Source: Heliocidaris tuberculata (taxonomy: Eukaryota; Echinodermata; Echinoidea; Camarodonta; Echinometridae). Taken from it: a DNA stretch of 64,000 bases. Below, in pieces: positions 17,090-60,783 of this stretch. A model generated the notes under the pieces. It ran no database searches. It saw nothing but the letters and a program-made list of their open reading frames with translations, and was not told where the DNA came from. The stretch's first letter is position 1. Every line of letters starts with the position of its first letter. A program made the position numbers and the translations under genes. The DNA lies in NCBI GenBank assembly GCA_025618425.1, contig CM046842.1, positions 26,382,552-26,446,551 of the forward strand. Direction: 5' to 3'.

Positions 17090-17530
17090 ACCAAAACCAA
17101 AAAAAACCCCCAAAAAACAAAGCAAAAAACAAAAACAAACAAACAAACAAAAAAACACAAATAAGATGAGGCATCTTTTTTTTTTTTTTTTTTTTTTGTT
17201 GTTCTTTCTTTCCATTCTGGACATATTTGCGATATGCGCATTATAAGTACTGTATATTATTATCATCATTATTATTATTATCATTATTATTAACTTTTTC
17301 ATTTCGTAACCGATTTCGATGGATTTTTTGAAATTAAATTGCTTCTCTCTGTCCTCTCTTTTCATTAAAATGGATATTTCCCCAGGGTTTCATTCTCCTT
17401 TAAGAAAGAAAAATTAACTCGACAACTCTGGGCCGGGAATGACATTATTTCTGCTATACGTTCCACCGCAGTGGTGGCGTTGCTGGTGGTAGAATAAGCA
17501 ACTAAAGAACTTACTTAGCTTTTGTTGTGT
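16360..17530. repeat. Intergenic stretch with (CAAAA)n tract
   Basis: A CAAAA/CAAA-type tract occupies about 16965-17160, followed by a 19-T run near 17177 and an ATT tract near 17262-17292. The aromatic, membrane-like frames on the minus strand are artefacts of the repeat. Confidence 0.8.
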
Positions 17531-17537
17531 TATTTAC

Positions 17538-17897
17538 CTGAACAATTTCCAAATTCACCAGCTGTAATTGTGATATTAAATCCCTGCGCCTGGATTGTGT
17601 CAGCTGAGGTAAATTTCAGCCACATCTCATTGTTGGTTGAAGTTACATCATACGGCTTATAACTACCGGACAATTTAGCCAACCGTGAGGCTATGTCGTT
17701 TGAATCCAGACCAGAACCGATTTGCAAGTAGGAAGAGTGACGTTCTAGATCAAACTTTTTGAATGTTACCATGATCTGGTAGGCAGATGGTGCAGAAAGA
17801 AGCCACGTGATGTTTGCATTTTTTGGATAGACGTCAGGATAGTTTGGTGAAACAATGGTCAACGACTCATTGTAACCAATGACTTTGCTGCTGATAT
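17538..17897 (-). CDS. CUB-domain exon (third of a tandem set)
   Basis: This exon is 360 bp, exactly 120 codons. It is preceded by an acceptor (TATGTTAG, AG at 17899-17898) and followed by a donor (CAG then GTAAAT at 17537 onward), both phase 1. It encodes one CUB domain: NESLTIVSPNYPDVYPKNAN, then ITWLLSAP, IMVTFKKFDLE, LQIGSG, MWLKFTS and GFNITI. CUB domains are extracellular beta-sandwich modules in secreted or membrane proteins. Unlike canonical CUBs it lacks the usual paired cysteines; only one cysteine, in NCSG, is near the end. The next exon would lie to the left, probably beyond the window. A TTAA MITE sits only about 100 bp upstream of the acceptor. Confidence 0.85.
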
Positions 17898-17999
17898 CTA
17901 ACATAATGTAAAAACAAAGATCCTTAGACCATAGAGTAAAGTAAGTATAAACCTTCTGTAGGCCGAACATAACATAATTTTCCGAATACAACTGATTAA

Positions 18000-18517
18000 A
18001 GCTCGTGTACAGATTTGGTGGCAAAAAGAAAATTGGAAAGAAACGTGTTAAATATAGTCTCATGTTGATTTCCATGTATCAAAAGTTGTTTGTACATGAT
18101 CATTTGATATTCCATCAATGATTTCCGGTGAATCTTACCGTAAATATATGTAGGAACGCCAGATCATGGCAATATGGCCCTACACTAGGACCTTTCTACC
18201 CCATGGCAATATGGTCTACACTAGGACCTTTCTACCCCAACGGCTCCCCGCACAGGAGATAGCATGTGTGTCACTGTGTGTAGGTTTTGTGTATAGTGTG
18301 GTGTACAGAATGGTGTATAGTGCACGCCGAATTTCTTGAGAGTTTATATCCCTGACCCGGCACCTAAATTATTGTTTGGATCTCATTTGTTTAATATACT
18401 TTAGGACGTGAAATCTTCACAGCCTCTTTGTATTGCCAATATCTAGCTATGATTAGTCTATGTAAGACAACAACAGTCTAATAGTTTTTGAGGGCTTACC
18501 AAAACTAAACATTACCT
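18000..18517 (+). mobile_element. TTAA-flanked MITE (copy 2)
   Basis: TTAA at 17996-17999 and 18518-18521. Starts AGCTCGTGTACAG and ends in TTTTTGAGGGCTTACCAAAA then ACCT. The interior contains GGCAATATGG and GCTCCCCGCACA blocks shared with the other copies. It lies in the intron just upstream of the CUB exon at 17538-17897. Confidence 0.85.
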
Positions 18518-21687: not shown

Positions 21688-22722
21688 ATGGTTGAAACAG
21701 CCGAGTTGTACGACGAGCAACGCCGAGAATTAGTCGCCCTGACATGTCTAATTTAGGAGGGGGTTTCGGTGGCTTAGATTGCTATACGCTTCCAGGTATG
21801 CCGTCAAACGGTGTACGCGGAGTGTGTAAACGCCATGGGGAAACGGGCAACTCTGACAAGCAACTAAGACCTGGATGAACGAAGAATGAAGGTAGAACGA
21901 ACACGCGTCAGGAAGATCGGTACCTCCTGCGTCAGGCGCGAGTGACCCGATTCGATTCTGCACAAACTTTGGCAGCTCACTTGAGCGAGAGGATTGGTAG
22001 GAGTATTTCAACGAGGACGACATAAAAATACTTTTAGTCTAACAATCTTCATGCCCGCATTTCGAGGAAGAACTTATTCTCATATCTCGTGTCAATCGCC
22101 AGAGACGCATCAGGTGGGCCACCAGAGCGAGGGATGGTGGAGGAAATTGGTGTCACTTTTCCGACGGAGCAGGTTTTGCCTTTCTTCCGACGATGAAATA
22201 GTGAGAGTCTAACGTGAACCCAACACCTCATACGACTCACGGAATCTGACCTACACTCAAAGAAATGTAGTTTCAGTCATGGTGTGGGGGTGTGTCGGCA
22301 TCTATGGAGTTGGCGATCTTGTTGTCGTGGACGGGAACATCGATAGCATTCAATATTGTGTGTTTATAGACTTCCACCTCTTTTCGTCCATTGATAACAT
22401 CTTGGAGACGCGCAACACCCTTTTATTTTCTAGGATGACAACGCACCGGCGCCTTGGGCTGCCCAAACGGACCAGTGGTATGGCGAAAACGGCGTCAACA
22501 GGGTGTAGTGACCGACGCAATCACCATATGGTAACCCGACAGAGAACCTGTGGGATGAAGAGAGCCCTCACCAAGGAAGGACCAACCACCAGGGAGGGTT
22601 TGATCCGCTCTATCTTCCGGGCCTGGGGCAGCATCACCCCAGAAAGATTGCATGGTCTCTTCCAAGGAGGATGTGCGCCATTAGCAGGATGCGCGGATAC
22701 CCGACAAAGTACTATAACTTGA
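21688..22722 (+). pseudogene. Degenerate Tc1/mariner-type transposase
   Basis: The start reads MVETAELYDEQRRELV. A helix-turn-helix-like region follows in another frame (RYLLRQARVTRFDSAQTLAA, then HLSERIGRSISTRT). Next comes MVWGCVGIYGVGDLVVVDGN (22279 onward), the hallmark block before the second catalytic aspartate of Tc1 transposases. Degraded remains of the NAPxH block and of the PDLNPIEhxWD block follow around 22440-22560. Several stops and frameshifts show it is dead. A TATAAAAG motif at about 21623 could be its old promoter. I could not identify terminal inverted repeats. Confidence 0.75.
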
Positions 22723-22941: not shown

Positions 22942-23112
22942 CATCCTGTGGAATCGAAAATAAATACGCTTGTACATGCCCTTGAACTTAATTATATTGA
23001 ATTGTTGAATGTATTCATTAACTTGAAATAGTTTGAACTTCTGTTGGATTGATTAACTGCAATTTGAATTAACTTCACAAATAATGAAGAAAGACGTTGT
23101 TGAAATCTTCAC

Positions 23113-23484
23113 CTGGAATGATCTCCGTTTCGAAAACCTTAACTGTAAGATTAAATCCGTGTTGTGTTCCTGATTCATCTGAAATAAATCTTAGCCACAT
23201 GTGATTGTTGGTGGACTTCACATCTTCGGGCAAGTAACAACCAGTAAGACTAACCAACGATGATTTACGGTCGTTTGAATCCCAGCCAGATCCAATGTCC
23301 AGGGAGTCGCTGGGAAATTGAAGATCAAAAGCGTTGAAGGTGACCATGATCTTGTAGTCTGCTGGTCCAGCAACACGCCACTTAACGATTTTGTTGTTTG
23401 GATAGTTGGCAGGGTAGTTTGGCGACACGATGACCAAAGACTCGTTGTAACGAAAACTGATGACTTCCCCTCCACCAACAACAT
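23113..23484 (-). CDS. CUB-domain exon (second of a tandem set)
   Basis: This exon is 372 bp, exactly 124 codons, between a phase-1 acceptor (TTTTTTCTAAATCAAG) and a phase-1 donor (CAG then GTGAAG). It encodes YNESLVIVSPNYPANYPNNK, VKWRVAGPADYKIMVTF, NAFDLQFPSDSLDIGSG, TGCYLPEDV and GFNLTVKVFE. It shares layout with the other two exons, and its single cysteine is in TGCYLP. The 5.2-kb intron to the next exon (17538-17897) holds the Tc1 relic, the LINE relic and two MITEs. The symmetric 1-1 phase allows CUB exons to be duplicated without breaking the frame. Confidence 0.88.
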
Positions 23485-23889
23485 CTTGATTTAGAAAAAA
23501 GGATAAAGACTTAAATAGATCTGATAGTGTTCTAGAAAAAAAAAGTATATGTGTGTAGATCTTGCTTCACATTAAGACATCAGGATTAACATTCACACCA
23601 TCTAGATTACAAGAGGAACTTCATTTTGCGTAATTCAGCCAACACGCCCTGTTGTAGTGAAAGAACTATATAACTAAGTAATATCTTCATTCACATCTGC
23701 TTAGAAACAGTCAATCGTTTTGATTTTTCTTTTGTGCAGAATAATTTAATTTCAATTATTTTCAAGGTTGATACAGCCTACTTTTTTTTTCGAATATGTA
23801 AAATAAAGTACTAGATTATGGCACATCGCAGCAGTTCGTTCATATTTGTAATTTGTTGATTTTAATCCTTTTCATGTTTGCATCATTGG

Positions 23890-24040: not shown

Positions 24041-24602
24041 AAATAATTTCAGGGGATATATGTCTACTGAACTGTCCCTGCAAAATTGTATCAATATTTG
24101 CTTACCAGCTCATATTAGAGCGGAAGTGACCGGCTATGAACTAAAATGGTATTAAAAAAAAAAAAAAAATCAGGCTACGCCTGACACTCTCCCCCACCTC
24201 CCACAATTTGGGGGAATTGGTAGGAGAATTATACAACTTCGCAATGGCGTCTTTCTTTCAGTCTGCCAAGCTTAATTTAATGTGCATTTTATGATTATTC
24301 AAATATTATACTTTTAATCTTGCACTATTTTAATTTGAACCAAATTCTGGTTTTGTGATATTTAGGTGCTTAGTTAGGCTTTGTGTTTATGAAATTCGAT
24401 ATAGAACCTTATGATTTATTTGAATCGAATGTCAGTTTGAATATGTACGTGATGGAAATGTTATTACAATATTATTTCTTACACAATTTTAATTCAGTTA
24501 GGATACTATAAATGTGTAACCTTTCTATGATTAACTTATTCACTATAAAAAGGGATGTCACACATTAACCGTCTTCAGGATGACCAGAGTTCACTTTTAT
24601 AC

Positions 24603-24977
24603 CTGAATAGTTTTCAGGTTCAAAAACCATAACTGTGATGTTAAATCCTCGTCTTCTTGCCGAGTCATAGTCATCTGAGGTAAATATTATCCACAGAGTA
24701 TTGTCGTCGGATATTACATCATCGGGCAAGGTAAGACCTTGAAACAACCTTGACTCTACGTCGTATGAACTCGAACCAGATCCGATTTGCAAGAAGGCAG
24801 AGCCAAGTTCAAGATCACAAAAGTTGAAAGTGGCCATGATCTGGCAGTCAGCAGGTCCAGAAACAAGCCACCGGATATGAGCATTTTTTGGATAGCTGTT
24901 TGGGTAGTTTGGTGAAACAATGGTCAACGACTCATTGTGGCTGATCTCCTTCTTGTATTCCCTTCTCATGCCATAAT
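24603..24977 (-). CDS. CUB-domain exon (first of a tandem set)
   Basis: This exon is 375 bp, exactly 125 codons, with a phase-1 acceptor (TTGTCGTTACAG) and a phase-1 donor (TCAG then GTATAA). It encodes ISHNESLTIVSPNYPNSYPK, IRWLVSGPADCQIMATFNFC, LQIGSG, LWIIFTSDD and RRGFNITVMVFE. Its two cysteines (ADCQ, NFCD) do not match the four canonical CUB positions. The intron to the next exon is about 1.1 kb. Upstream exons of this gene would be to the right; the RPL34 pseudogene is only 245 bp upstream. Whether it is the first coding exon is not clear, because no signal-peptide exon was recognised. Confidence 0.87.
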
Positions 24978-25130
24978 CTGTAACGACAAATTGAATGATG
25001 AATTTATCCATTTGTGTGTAGTTACAATATTCTCCCCAAACAATGAAATCCCCCAAAACATGAGCTGATAATCTTGTGCAAAAATTGTTAGCATGTACAC
25101 AAAATCTTACTTACTACGTTTTGCTTACTT

Positions 25131-57432: not shown

Positions 57433-57916
57433 CCCGGGGGGGGGGGGGCACTCACGTATATTGGTGGTACGGGGACGTGCCGCTTTGATGCCCCCCCCCC
57501 CTTTTTTCAGACCCCGATTTCCGTTCTCTAGATACTCAGTTCCGCTCAGGAGCCGCTCAGCCCCGCTCTGAAGACCCCCGTTATGAAACATATCCGTTCG
57601 CATGCGGCCGGGAGCGTGGCGGAAGCAGGGGTCGCTCGACCTGGTTTCGCGAGTCGCGCCCTAGGCCCTTTCGTCGCGCGAGCCTTGAAAACTGCTTCAG
57701 CTAGCTAGCTACTAGCGCTACACGGCGCGGGCGCGGCCCCCGGCGCGGCCCGTCCCGAGATCCTGCGATAGCGAAGGTGTACCGCCGATAAAGCGAGGTT
57801 AGTTTTGTAGTTCCCTAGACCCTGTTTTTCACTCTGCCCAATAGATCATAGTTCCCTAGACCCCGTATTTTACACCTTGAAGTCAGTTCCTTAGACCCCC
57901 TTTTCGGGGATTCGTG

Positions 57917-59176
57917 TAGCCTCTTGTCGAGGCCCTGGCGCTGTTGAAATCCTTGGCGATATGGAGGCAAAAAACCGAGGCGCTTGCGCCGAGGGCCTCT
58001 TGACACCCGATCTGAATTTCTTTTGTATTTCATTGTTTTGACGAATATTCCGACCAAATTTTGGTCGGTGAAAATCATCCAATAAGCGCGAGCTACCATG
58101 ACGTAATGTTAAATATTCATGACTCGACTGCACGCTATTTCTTACATGGCGTTCAACGTTTCTTCCCGACGAGTGATGACGATATTTGTAAGAGCTTAGA
58201 ATATGCCGCTAGAATGTTGAAGATTGACAGATTCAAAGATTTGCAAGTTGATGCAATCAAATCTGCACTTAAAGGACAAGATGTTTTTGTGAATCTGCCT
58301 ACTGGCTATGGAAAAAGTGTTATTTTTCACGCGCTACCGCTCTGTGCTGATTACCTCCGTGTGCCAGGGATGGAGAGTGAGGCTGCTGCTTCGCAAGGGC
58401 CAGGCGGATCCCCCGGGGCCTTGCCGGGCAGTGAAGTTGCTGGTAACTCCTTGGTTACATCATCATCTTCACGAAGCATTTTGTTGATTATTTCCCCTTT
58501 GGTGTCTCTGATGAGAGACCAGGTGAAGTCGCTCAAGAAACGTGGACTTCAAGCCATCTATCTTGGGGACGCTTCGTCACAAGATGTGACTTTAGAAGGT
58601 ATAATTTTGAATTTGACTCGGTCAAGATCTAAAAACTGTGTTAGTGTTATTTGTTAATAACACTGTAACAGTGTAAGACTAAGTCAACTTTTCAGAATTG
58701 ATGGAGATGCATCTATTGTTGAACGGTGACTTTTATCGCCCATCCTGCATTATTTGTAAATTATGATGATCTCTTGAGAAGTATGTACATTCGTCTTATT
58801 TCAAATTACCATGGTTTGTAAGCTAGAGATCGAATTCTTCATAATGTGCTTGTCGATCTGTGAATGTATTTTGAGCAAGAGATTTACGTAATCCCCCCCC
58901 CCCCAAAAAAAAATAATAGACTAGTCCAGAACTGAAGTAAGAAATCTTTGAGATTTCATTTGCCAATTTGCTGGGCGATCGCCGCGGTAATCTAACTATT
59001 CACGTTTTCATGCATAATTCAGTAGGAAATCGTGCCTCATGAATATATAATTCAGGTCGGGTGTCAAGAGGCCCTCGGCGCAAGCGCCTCGGTTTTTCTG
59101 ACTCGCTTCGCTCGCCACCAGAAATTTTGCCTCCATATCGCCAAGGATTCCAACAGCGCCAGGGCCTCGACAAGAG
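57917..59176. mobile_element. 1.26-kb inverted-repeat unit carrying a RecQ-type gene fragment
   Basis: GATTCGTG flanks at 57909-57916 and 59177-59184, while the intact MITE copy 2 has it once. The ends CCTCTTGTCGAGGCCCTGGC ... ATATGGAGGCAAAA and CCGAGGCGCTTGCGCC ... TTGACACCCGA are inverted repeats of about 95 bp on the left and 125 bp on the right. The left one lacks a 30-bp block. The left tip has four extra bases (TAGC). The unit carries no transposase. An open frame of RecQ helicase type lies inside. The structure is that of a transposon that captured host sequence. Confidence 0.85.
58106..58598 (+). pseudogene. Captured N-terminal part of a RecQ-type DNA helicase gene
   Basis: From the ATG at 58106 the frame shows a Q-motif-like start (FKDLQVDAIKSALKGQDVFV), a Walker A (LPTGYGKSVIF, residues 64-74) and motif Ia (ILLIISPLVSLMRDQVKSL, about 125-143). 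Motif II (DExH) and all later helicase motifs are absent. At 58598 a GAAG is followed by GTATAA, a plausible phase-1 splice donor. Open frame continues only to 58657 and then turns noncoding. This fits capture of a first coding exon plus part of its intron. RecQ proteins unwind DNA 3' to 5' in repair; this piece cannot do so alone. A chimeric transcript is possible. It lies antisense to the surrounding ZP gene and to the gypsy element. Confidence 0.75.
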
Positions 59177-59230
59177 GATTCGTGAGGCACACCCCCGTCA
59201 AAATATAATTCGAGTGCCCCCCCCCCCCGG

Positions 59231-60073
59231 GATATGGTAAATGTTGGAGCTACGGCAAACTCGAGCATAATGTCCCTTTTTGTGGCACTTCCTACAGTCT
59301 TGTCCTCGAGCTGGGCATTGGGAGTCACGTGCACGATGACCCTCGAGTCCACAATTGCCACAACACTTTTCCTGCTTAGGCTTATGATACCCCCGCCCAG
59401 GGGCTGGAGTGGAACAACCGGGGTGTCGAGAAGTCTGTGACCGGGGACGATCTGGCCGAACTGCTGGCGGCTTGGTTGGGGGCCGCCTCGCTTGAATGGT
59501 ATTCACTGCTGGAGAGGGTGAAGCATTAGACTGTTCGATCGACAAAGCCTGGTTGTCAGCTGCCTCGGCTGCTCGTGCAATCGATAAAAGTGTTGTAAGT
59601 GTCAGATTAGGCTCCCTTAGAAGACGTCTACGTAGCGGTTTCGATATGCACTTGTCTATGAATTGATCACGAATGTGTTCATCTTGCTGCTCTCCAAAGG
59701 CACATGTTGATGACGAAGAGCGAAGGCGAATATAAAAATCATCAACAGTCTCTGTAGTCTCCTGGATGCACTGACGAAATATGTGTCTCTGATAGGCTAC
59801 ATTCGTTTGTGGCTCAAAGTGCGTCGTTAGGGCCTGCACTTCCTGTTCATAGGTAGTTCCCGTATCAGGAAGGGTGTCGAAAAGCTGCTGCACCTCCAGG
59901 CCTGCACAATGAAGCAGCAAAGCCCTCCTGACATCTCCATCAGCTATCTCAGAAGCCTGCACATAGTAGTCGAATGACTTCTTCCACGTAGACCAGGCGG
60001 TCGAGGCACTGCCTCAGGCTGAGCTGGCAGCGAACGGTGGGGGCTGACTGAGCCCGTTCATCCTCGTCGCCAT
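59231..60073 (-). pseudogene. gag: Ty3/gypsy gag
   Basis: The likely start is the ATG at 60073. A TGA at 60014-60016 (codon 20) interrupts the frame. After it the frame runs open through a retrotransposon-gag core (STAWSTWKKSFDYY, RRALLLHCAG, FxRQCIQETTETVDDFYIRL) and two nucleocapsid-type knuckles (CGNCGLEGHRARDSQC and CRKCHKKGHYARVC). The second fits CX2CX4HX4C; the first is slightly irregular. The frame meets the MITE at 59231. Confidence 0.88.
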
Positions 60074-60783
60074 TTATTGTGTATTGGAGAGGGAGGCAGA
60101 GAGAGGAGACATGACAAGTTGACTTGGCTTGACGGTGACCAAATAACAAGTGTCCTTTATTAGCTGCTTCTCGTTCACATTAACTGTTGTGTGTATTACT
60201 TACACTGACATAATACATTCCCGGGGGGGGGGGGCACTCACGTATATTGGTGGTACGGGGACGTGCCGCTTTGATGACCCCCTTTTTCAGACCCCGATTT
60301 CCGTTCTCTAGATACTCAGTTCCGCTCAGGAGCCGCTCAGCCCCGCTCTGAAGACCCCCGTTATGAAACATATCCGTTCGCATGCGGCCGGGAGCGTGGC
60401 GGAGGCAGTGGTCGCTCGACCTGGTCTCGCGCCCTAGGCCCTTTCGTCGCGCGAGCCTTGAAAACTGCTCCAGCTAGCTAGCTACTAGCGCTACACGGCG
60501 CAGGCGCGGCCCCAGGCGCGGCCCGTACCGAGATCCTGCGATAGCGAAGGTGTACCGCCGATAAAGCGAGGTTAGTTTTGTAGTTCCCTAGACCCTGTTT
60601 TTCACTCTGCCCAATATTAGTAGATCATAGTTCCCAAGACCCTGTTTTTTTATACCTTGAAGTCAGTTCCTTAGACCCCCTTTTCGGGGATTCGTGAGGC
60701 ACACCCCCGTCAAAATATAATTCGAGTGCCCCCCCCCCCCCGGAATACATTATGGCATTGGTGGGAAAGTATACATGTTTACA
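60074..60783 (-). mobile_element. Probable gypsy 5' LTR and leader, split by MITE copy 2
   Basis: On the minus strand a TGTAAACATG start at 60783, an AATAAAGG polyadenylation-like motif at about 60157, and TGGTCACCGTCAAG (about 60139) just downstream fit an LTR followed by a leader. The MITE at 60220-60743 interrupts it. No second LTR exists in the window to test the boundaries, so they are provisional. Confidence 0.45.
60220..60743. mobile_element. hAT-like MITE (copy 2), intact, 524 bp
   Basis: AATACATT flanks at 60212-60219 and 60744-60751. Its left part matches 57433-57916 with few differences, through ATACTCAGTTCCGCTCAGGA, GAAACATATCCGTTCGCATG and GCTAGCTAGCTACTAGCG. Its right part matches 59177-59230. 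It contains one GATTCGTG where copy 1 has the nested insertion. Confidence 0.93.

Follow-up and report, generated by a model that had tools for sequence, protein, structure and literature searches.

A damaged copy of a young, high-copy DNA transposon family carrying the start of a RecQ-like helicase gene in Heliocidaris tuberculata

Within the window (the whole 64,000-bp stretch analyzed, C11:26382552-26446551, from an 897-Mb assembly of 69 contigs) lies a short inverted-repeat element containing the beginning of a RecQ-type helicase gene, and it raises the question of whether a transposon has taken up part of a host gene or has lost most of a helicase gene that was once its own. The initial annotation offered both models, capture of a host RecQ gene by analogy with Pack-MULEs and deletion from a larger transposon; the analysis described here favors the second without proving it, and leaves the first less likely, given a homologous fragment in a sister family. 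We call the family of the window copy F1 and the sister family F2.

The inverted repeats and comparison with an empty site delimit a unit of 1259 bp (57917-59175, Table 1). Its long inverted repeats, about 100 bp each, are real, as originally claimed: the arms are 98% complementary both between 57920-57972 and 59125-59177 and between 57970-58018 and 59049-59097. Because the sibling MITE, 2.8 kb from the unit, is uninterrupted, the empty site can be read directly, and the flanks match it as proposed, 57868-57916 with 60648-60696 and 59176-59232 with 60688-60744, overlapping on a single GGATTCGTG. The target duplication, initially given as 8 bp with the unit ending at 59176, is actually this 9-bp GGATTCGTG, so the unit ends at 59175. 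What made it look like 8 bp is a 5-bp loss at the right end of the window copy: the remaining 45 delimited elements terminate in ...GACAAGAGGCTA, but this copy and its duplicated twin (see below) stop at ...GACAAGA and are without the final GGCTA. The first MITE copy in turn interrupts a coding stretch that by eye looks Gypsy-like, so that three mobile elements are nested at this position. Judged by eye, both MITE copies end in inverted G/C runs and are flanked by 8-bp direct repeats (GATATGGT; AATACATT).

Table 1. Features of the F1 element and the adjoining MITEs, in window coordinates.
Feature	Position	Strand	Basis
F1 element, non-autonomous DNA transposon copy, right terminus 5 bp short	57917..59175	+	repeats, empty site, copy comparison
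Left terminal inverted repeat, begins TAGCCTCTTGTCGAGGCCC	57917..58018	+	
Right terminal inverted repeat; 27 bp (59098-59124) absent from left arm	59049..59175	-	
Left target-site duplication GGATTCGTG, 9 bp	57908..57916	.	
Right target-site duplication GGATTCGTG, 9 bp	59176..59184	.	
Open frame; ~58170-58598 homologous to N-terminal part of RecQ-like helicase	58016..58657	+	PTGYGKS, SPLVSLMRDQV
Family start codon position (MAFNVSS...), out of frame here by single-base loss	58146..58148	+	
Possible intron (GT...CAG) or small insertion within helicase remnant	58599..58695	+	family majority sequence and window letters
Outer MITE, G/C-run ends, split by F1 element	57433..59230	.	interrupts Gypsy-like coding stretch (by eye)
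Sibling MITE with uninterrupted (empty) site	60220..60743	.	

Genome searches with the inverted repeats, which might have met no other copy, returned many. The 17-mer at the terminus (TAGCCTCTTGTCGAGGC) occurs exactly at 240 forward and 240 reverse places in 897 Mb (reversed-pattern control, 0 and 0). The left repeat alone gave 529 candidates (40 scored) and the whole unit 315, of which the 40 scored have 90-100% identity, with 37 matching end to end, one covering positions 1-1246 and two starting near position 200. Of the first 100 listed 17-mer places, 84 fall into 42 pairs and the other 16 lack a partner; the pairs span 1262-1594 bp in 35 of the 42 cases, 142-586 bp in three and 1742-4253 bp in four. 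From 68 loci (L044-L111) we delimited 47 elements, including the window copy and its twin, and in the 45 others the 9-bp target duplication is exact in 40, has one mismatch in four and two mismatches in one, against 0 in a shifted-position control. The helicase fragment was matched by DNA in all 47 copies, 21 of which came from a protein search. The copies are 97.4-99.7% identical to their own majority sequence, a range that describes the best matches, in which older copies are under-represented. F1 is a young, high-copy and widespread family of short DNA transposons, and the window holds a damaged copy of it. The twin, at C11:26826197, was rejected as an independent insertion; 4.26 kb including the flanks match at 99.2%, with the same shortened right end, and it is a duplicated segment or haplotig. 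At C1:54899529-54902082, two F1 helicase fragments lie on opposite strands between F1 ends, possibly as a composite or an inverted duplication.

The frame inside the element does match RecQ-type helicases, as had been claimed with the reservation that a profile search might match no helicase: Pfam DEAD matches it at 1.4e-9, the best solved structure is RECQ1 (9.9e-10), and structures of BLM and WRN match too. PTGYGKS is its Walker A motif, and SPLVSLMRDQV its motif Ia. Of 179 candidates from a protein search with the frame, 36 are relatives at E 0.01 or better, the best of which (P0001, 85% identical) probably represents the F1 family in a relative, because its terminal residues resemble F1's own downstream sequence (by eye). 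Viral relatives were also considered and set aside; one search found none, and another found 43 loci, 24-63% identical in parts, which we regard as RecQ-type helicases in general. The ATG at 58106, originally read as the start, is not that of the family, whose majority sequence starts (MAFNVSS...) at the equivalent of 58146, 243 bp from the element end; in the window copy a single-base loss shortly downstream puts this start out of frame. As for the reported splice donor, AAG/GTATAA does exist at 58598/58599, but the unspliced majority frame runs 12 codons on to a stop. In the majority sequence a CAG-ending partner lies about 100 bp downstream, and some residues of the spliced reading past 58599 look faintly helicase-like by eye. 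Because neither the F2 copies that cross this point nor the longer helicase genes have an intron there, 58599-58695 may equally be an intron or a small insertion.

F2 surfaced when the same genome was searched with the longer relative P0037 (75 matches, with 69 of 765 candidates scored) and with the P0004 tail (16 matches, 26 candidates); it was read at L116, L117, L119, L120 (recognized by its left end only), L121 and the truncated L122. Its elements run from TAGCCTTTTGACAAGGCCTCG (one base different in L117) to CGAGGCCTTGTCAAAAGGCTA, their termini (TAGCCTTTTGACAAGGC) are related to those of F1, and their 9-bp duplications, read in four copies, are perfect in L117, L119 and L121, with a single mismatch in L116. 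The F2 helicase fragment (L117) is 47% identical to that of F1 over 152 residues and occupies the same place behind the 5' end; in three aligned copies its start codon lies 262-271 bp in from the end, versus 243 bp in F1. It extends beyond F1's fragment, to SPESVFERGFELLGF, uninterrupted at F1's donor-like site; the exceptions are L119, whose sequence diverges sooner, and L122, in which the front of the helicase is missing. The 21-mer end of F2 occurs at 168 and 163 places in the genome (control 0), and a joint F1/F2 end pattern (TAGCCTNTTGNCNAGGC) at 549 and 546 (control 0); 72 of the first 100 listed joint-pattern places are on contig C1, where they include 31 end pairs, all at most 2433 bp apart. 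That the two families have related termini, duplications of one length and homologous gene parts at matching positions finds its simplest explanation in a shared ancestor already carrying the helicase. The helicase would then predate both families, and both are probably non-autonomous deletion derivatives. Some intervals on C1, of 536-559 bp and 744-798 bp, are likewise flanked by F2-type ends and probably represent still shorter non-autonomous families of this lineage.

The truncated frame might instead have a function, such as dominant-negative regulation of transposition, for which both families have retained it; the similar fragments in F1 and F2, the intact frames in 26 of 47 copies and the pooled dN/dS of 0.68 would agree with this. 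We regard it as very improbable, since the high intact rate stems from the copies that a protein search brought up (18 of 21; N/site 0.0034, S/site 0.0125). Among the copies found by the terminal repeat alone, a set small in number and unbiased toward coding sequence, 8 of 26 frames are intact and N/site (0.0071) exceeds S/site (0.0044), with 0.0150 for non-coding sites. The purifying selection at which the pooled ratio hinted is not seen in the copies found by their ends only, and we take the pooled signal as an ascertainment effect. Coding rates are below non-coding rates in both the repeat-found and the protein-found sets, a difference to which non-coding alignment noise may contribute. In the end-found copies nothing suggests purifying selection; the frame is decaying, and the helicase remnant is most likely a passenger.

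F1 probably arose by internal deletion of a helicase-bearing transposon and is probably mobilized in trans. The ancestor would have been a larger transposon with its own RecQ-like helicase gene directly behind the 5' inverted repeat, from which an internal deletion would have spared both ends, the first part of that gene and some non-coding sequence on the 3' side; a transposase acting in trans would move the copies via their termini (TAGCCTYTTGWCRAGGCC), duplicating 9 bp of target, and the helicase remnant would ride along. The deletion origin, the mobilization in trans and the Academ assignment discussed below are what we infer from these comparisons; as a description of how F1 behaves, a trans-mobilized deletion derivative of a helicase-bearing transposon with 9-bp target duplications is well supported. 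Capture in the manner of Pack-MULEs and Pack-TIRs, in which the F1 ancestor would have acquired the beginning of a RecQ-like gene through gap repair or template switching before the chimera multiplied, seems to us improbable, even though the fragment is cut off inside the helicase domain and followed by non-coding sequence, a possible intron is present, and Pack-TIRs do exist in animals (370 in 100 genomes, according to passages of PMC8277862). The homologous fragment of F2, in the same position and 47% identical, would require two captures of the same gene part beside related ends, or else a single capture ancient enough to make the helicase part of the lineage. Animal Pack-TIRs as portrayed in those passages resemble F1 in being bounded by terminal inverted repeats, multicopy and equipped with a gene fragment; F1 differs in that no parent gene appeared in the searches made. 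A single copy looks like capture, and it is the related family's homologous fragment in the same position that reverses the reading.

Comparison with helicase genes, proposed at the outset as a way to decide between the two models, gave RecQ-like homology but no close full-length parent among the matches to P0037, the 16 matches to the P0004 tail or the three longer helicase genes aligned (L114, L115 and L123). One genome search covers the range of 76-100% identity spanned by the best 150 of 816 candidates, and a parent below that range would lie beyond them. The fragment is 31-34% identical to the three longer genes and 34% identical over 83 residues to a RECQ1-like host gene (L118), so that identity alone is indecisive; the Walker A of L118, PTGGGKS versus PTGYGKS in F1, speaks against capture. 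Some weight shifts from deletion to capture with a further helicase exon on C9 (L124, 19717043-19717474), because here a helicase start lies between unrelated repeats. This decayed first exon contains stops and, as in the longer genes, closes with DESHCVKKW ahead of a GT. It lies between 46-bp inverted repeats (AGGAGGTTTCTGATATTG...; L124:3989-4727) that show 97.8% similarity to each other over a distance of about 740 bp; they begin with AGGAGGTTTC, not TAGCC, and are unlike the F1 and F2 ends, and no target duplication was found around them. Two origins fit L124, shortening of another helicase-bearing transposon or capture of an exon by such an element, and it may represent a third family of transposons that has a helicase start.

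An autonomous source of the kind that deletion from a helicase-bearing transposon presupposes was sought among longer elements. Full-length copies with transposase and helicase, which would have spoken for this model, did not occur with F1 termini among the places listed, nor did any longer element with F1 or F2 ends and a transposase among the first 100 places per end pattern. Candidates rejected were three intervals examined in full or almost so, C8:24518000-24524900 (L112), which holds a LINE-like insertion (by eye), C21:20541000-20546500 (L113), which holds inserted sequence of another kind, and C2:6669895-6674147 (L125), with an inverted/tandem-repeat insertion; and also C5:7737296-7745954 (L126), whose first 1.4 kb are unrelated sequence behind an F2 end. 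Fused transposase-helicase proteins with an F1-type helicase numbered 0 among 2660 candidates.

For the superfamily of this lineage we lean toward an AcademH-like affiliation, the leading, though unproven, assignment. Kojima's 2020 article on AcademH (Mob DNA 11:15) reportedly names animals and fungi in its title. The hAT and P elements duplicate 8 bp of target, and an exact 8-bp duplication was found at the termini of 0 of the 45 F1 copies, versus exactly 9 bp in 40. The same counts disagree with Merlin, to which a passage of PMC10045372 assigns 8 bp. KolobokH, stated in PMC9587614 to be found only in fungi, has a RecQ helicase as F1 does, but Kolobok duplicates TTAA and F1 duplicates 9 bp of varied sequence. 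AcademH, with duplications of 9 or 10 bp (3 or 4 in AcademX; passages of PMC10045372) and a DEAD/Helicase_C-type helicase in its lineage (passages of PMC10045372 and PMC10799480), resembles F1 and F2 in duplication length and, as far as their N-terminal fragment goes, in the helicase; they differ from it in that the copies read are without transposase and contain only the N-terminal part of a superfamily II helicase gene.

A further likeness to AcademH is the presence of DUF6589, which we take to be the Academ transposase, beside RecQ-like helicase matches in this genome (18 DUF6589 matches among 26 candidates; 0 of 14 control genomes matched). Helicase and DUF6589 lie tail to tail, on opposite strands, at three loci: C1:56400015-56402151(+) with C1:56408750-56409658(-), C11:17251556-17252152(+) with C11:17252527-17252775(-) and 17254267-17254500(-), and C1:16766520-16767092(-) with C1:16755049-16755285(+). 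Only the C-terminal half of the helicase was matched at the C11:17.25M and C1:16.76M loci, and the DUF6589 match at the latter holds stops. At C11:17251556-17254500 the two are 375 bp apart, the most compact helicase-plus-transposase candidate seen. Random placement of 12 helicase and 16 DUF6589 loci gave a mean of 0.004 pairs and at least 3 pairs in 0 of 20000 runs, figures to be read with the clustering of real transposons in mind and with a recount of 13 helicase loci rather than the 12 used.

These loci differ from F1 and F2 in that no common termini were seen. No exact joint-pattern end lay near either of the two C1 helicase/DUF6589 loci among the first 100 listed places, no inverted pair of F1/F2-like ends was found at L114, L115 or L123, and none of the 18 genome-wide DUF6589 matches fell inside F1 or F2 end pairs among the first 100 listed places per pattern. 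A DNA query from upstream of the C1 helicase matched a repeat inserted there and was uninformative on termini. L114, the one C1 helicase/DUF6589 locus read, has 31% identity to F1 and clusters with L115 and L123, apart from F1 and F2, in a tree of about 150 columns with several weak nodes and its root imposed on L118; in the unrooted tree L118 falls beside P0037 and P0041, away from F1, F2, P0003 and P0004. We entertain, tentatively, that the genome hosts a two-gene, helicase-first AcademH branch in which a RecQ-like helicase at the 5' end and a DUF6589 transposase at the 3' end would be convergent, and in which recurrent internal deletion would have produced F1 and F2 as high-copy families by keeping the helicase start adjoining the 5' end.

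That F1 and F2 belong rather to MuDR, or to an undescribed superfamily with 9-bp duplications and a helicase accessory gene, would alter the superfamily only, and we think it unlikely. The roughly 100-bp inverted repeats and 9-bp duplications fit MuDR (4 to 10 bp in a passage of PMC10045372), as does the gene fragment inside when F1 is compared with Pack-MULEs, and MULE transposases are present in this genome (14 matches among 46 candidates). The two MULE matches on C1, however, fall in none of the 31 end pairs found there, no MULE transposase was linked to the F1 and F2 ends, and the F1 fragment is common to a sister family in the same place and so looks ancestral rather than captured. A helicase accessory is moreover described for AcademH and KolobokH, with none for MuDR in the passages that cover these.

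We found no report of F1 in the literature searched on RecQ and AcademH transposons, captured fragments and echinoderm elements; F1 or F2 may already be named in Repbase. They are new families of a known kind of transposon, and the window copy, largely ordinary in itself, points to a helicase-carrying lineage. Hundreds of near-identical ends with clean 9-bp duplications provide a handle for finding the autonomous partner, and also a way into the question of why some transposons need a RecQ-type helicase. Elsewhere in the window, repeated short open frames resembling CUB-domain exons occur on the minus strand (17530-18078, 23075-23566 and 24565-25110), and an open frame on the plus strand (22213-22722) resembles a piece of a Tc1/mariner-type transposase, all as judged by eye.
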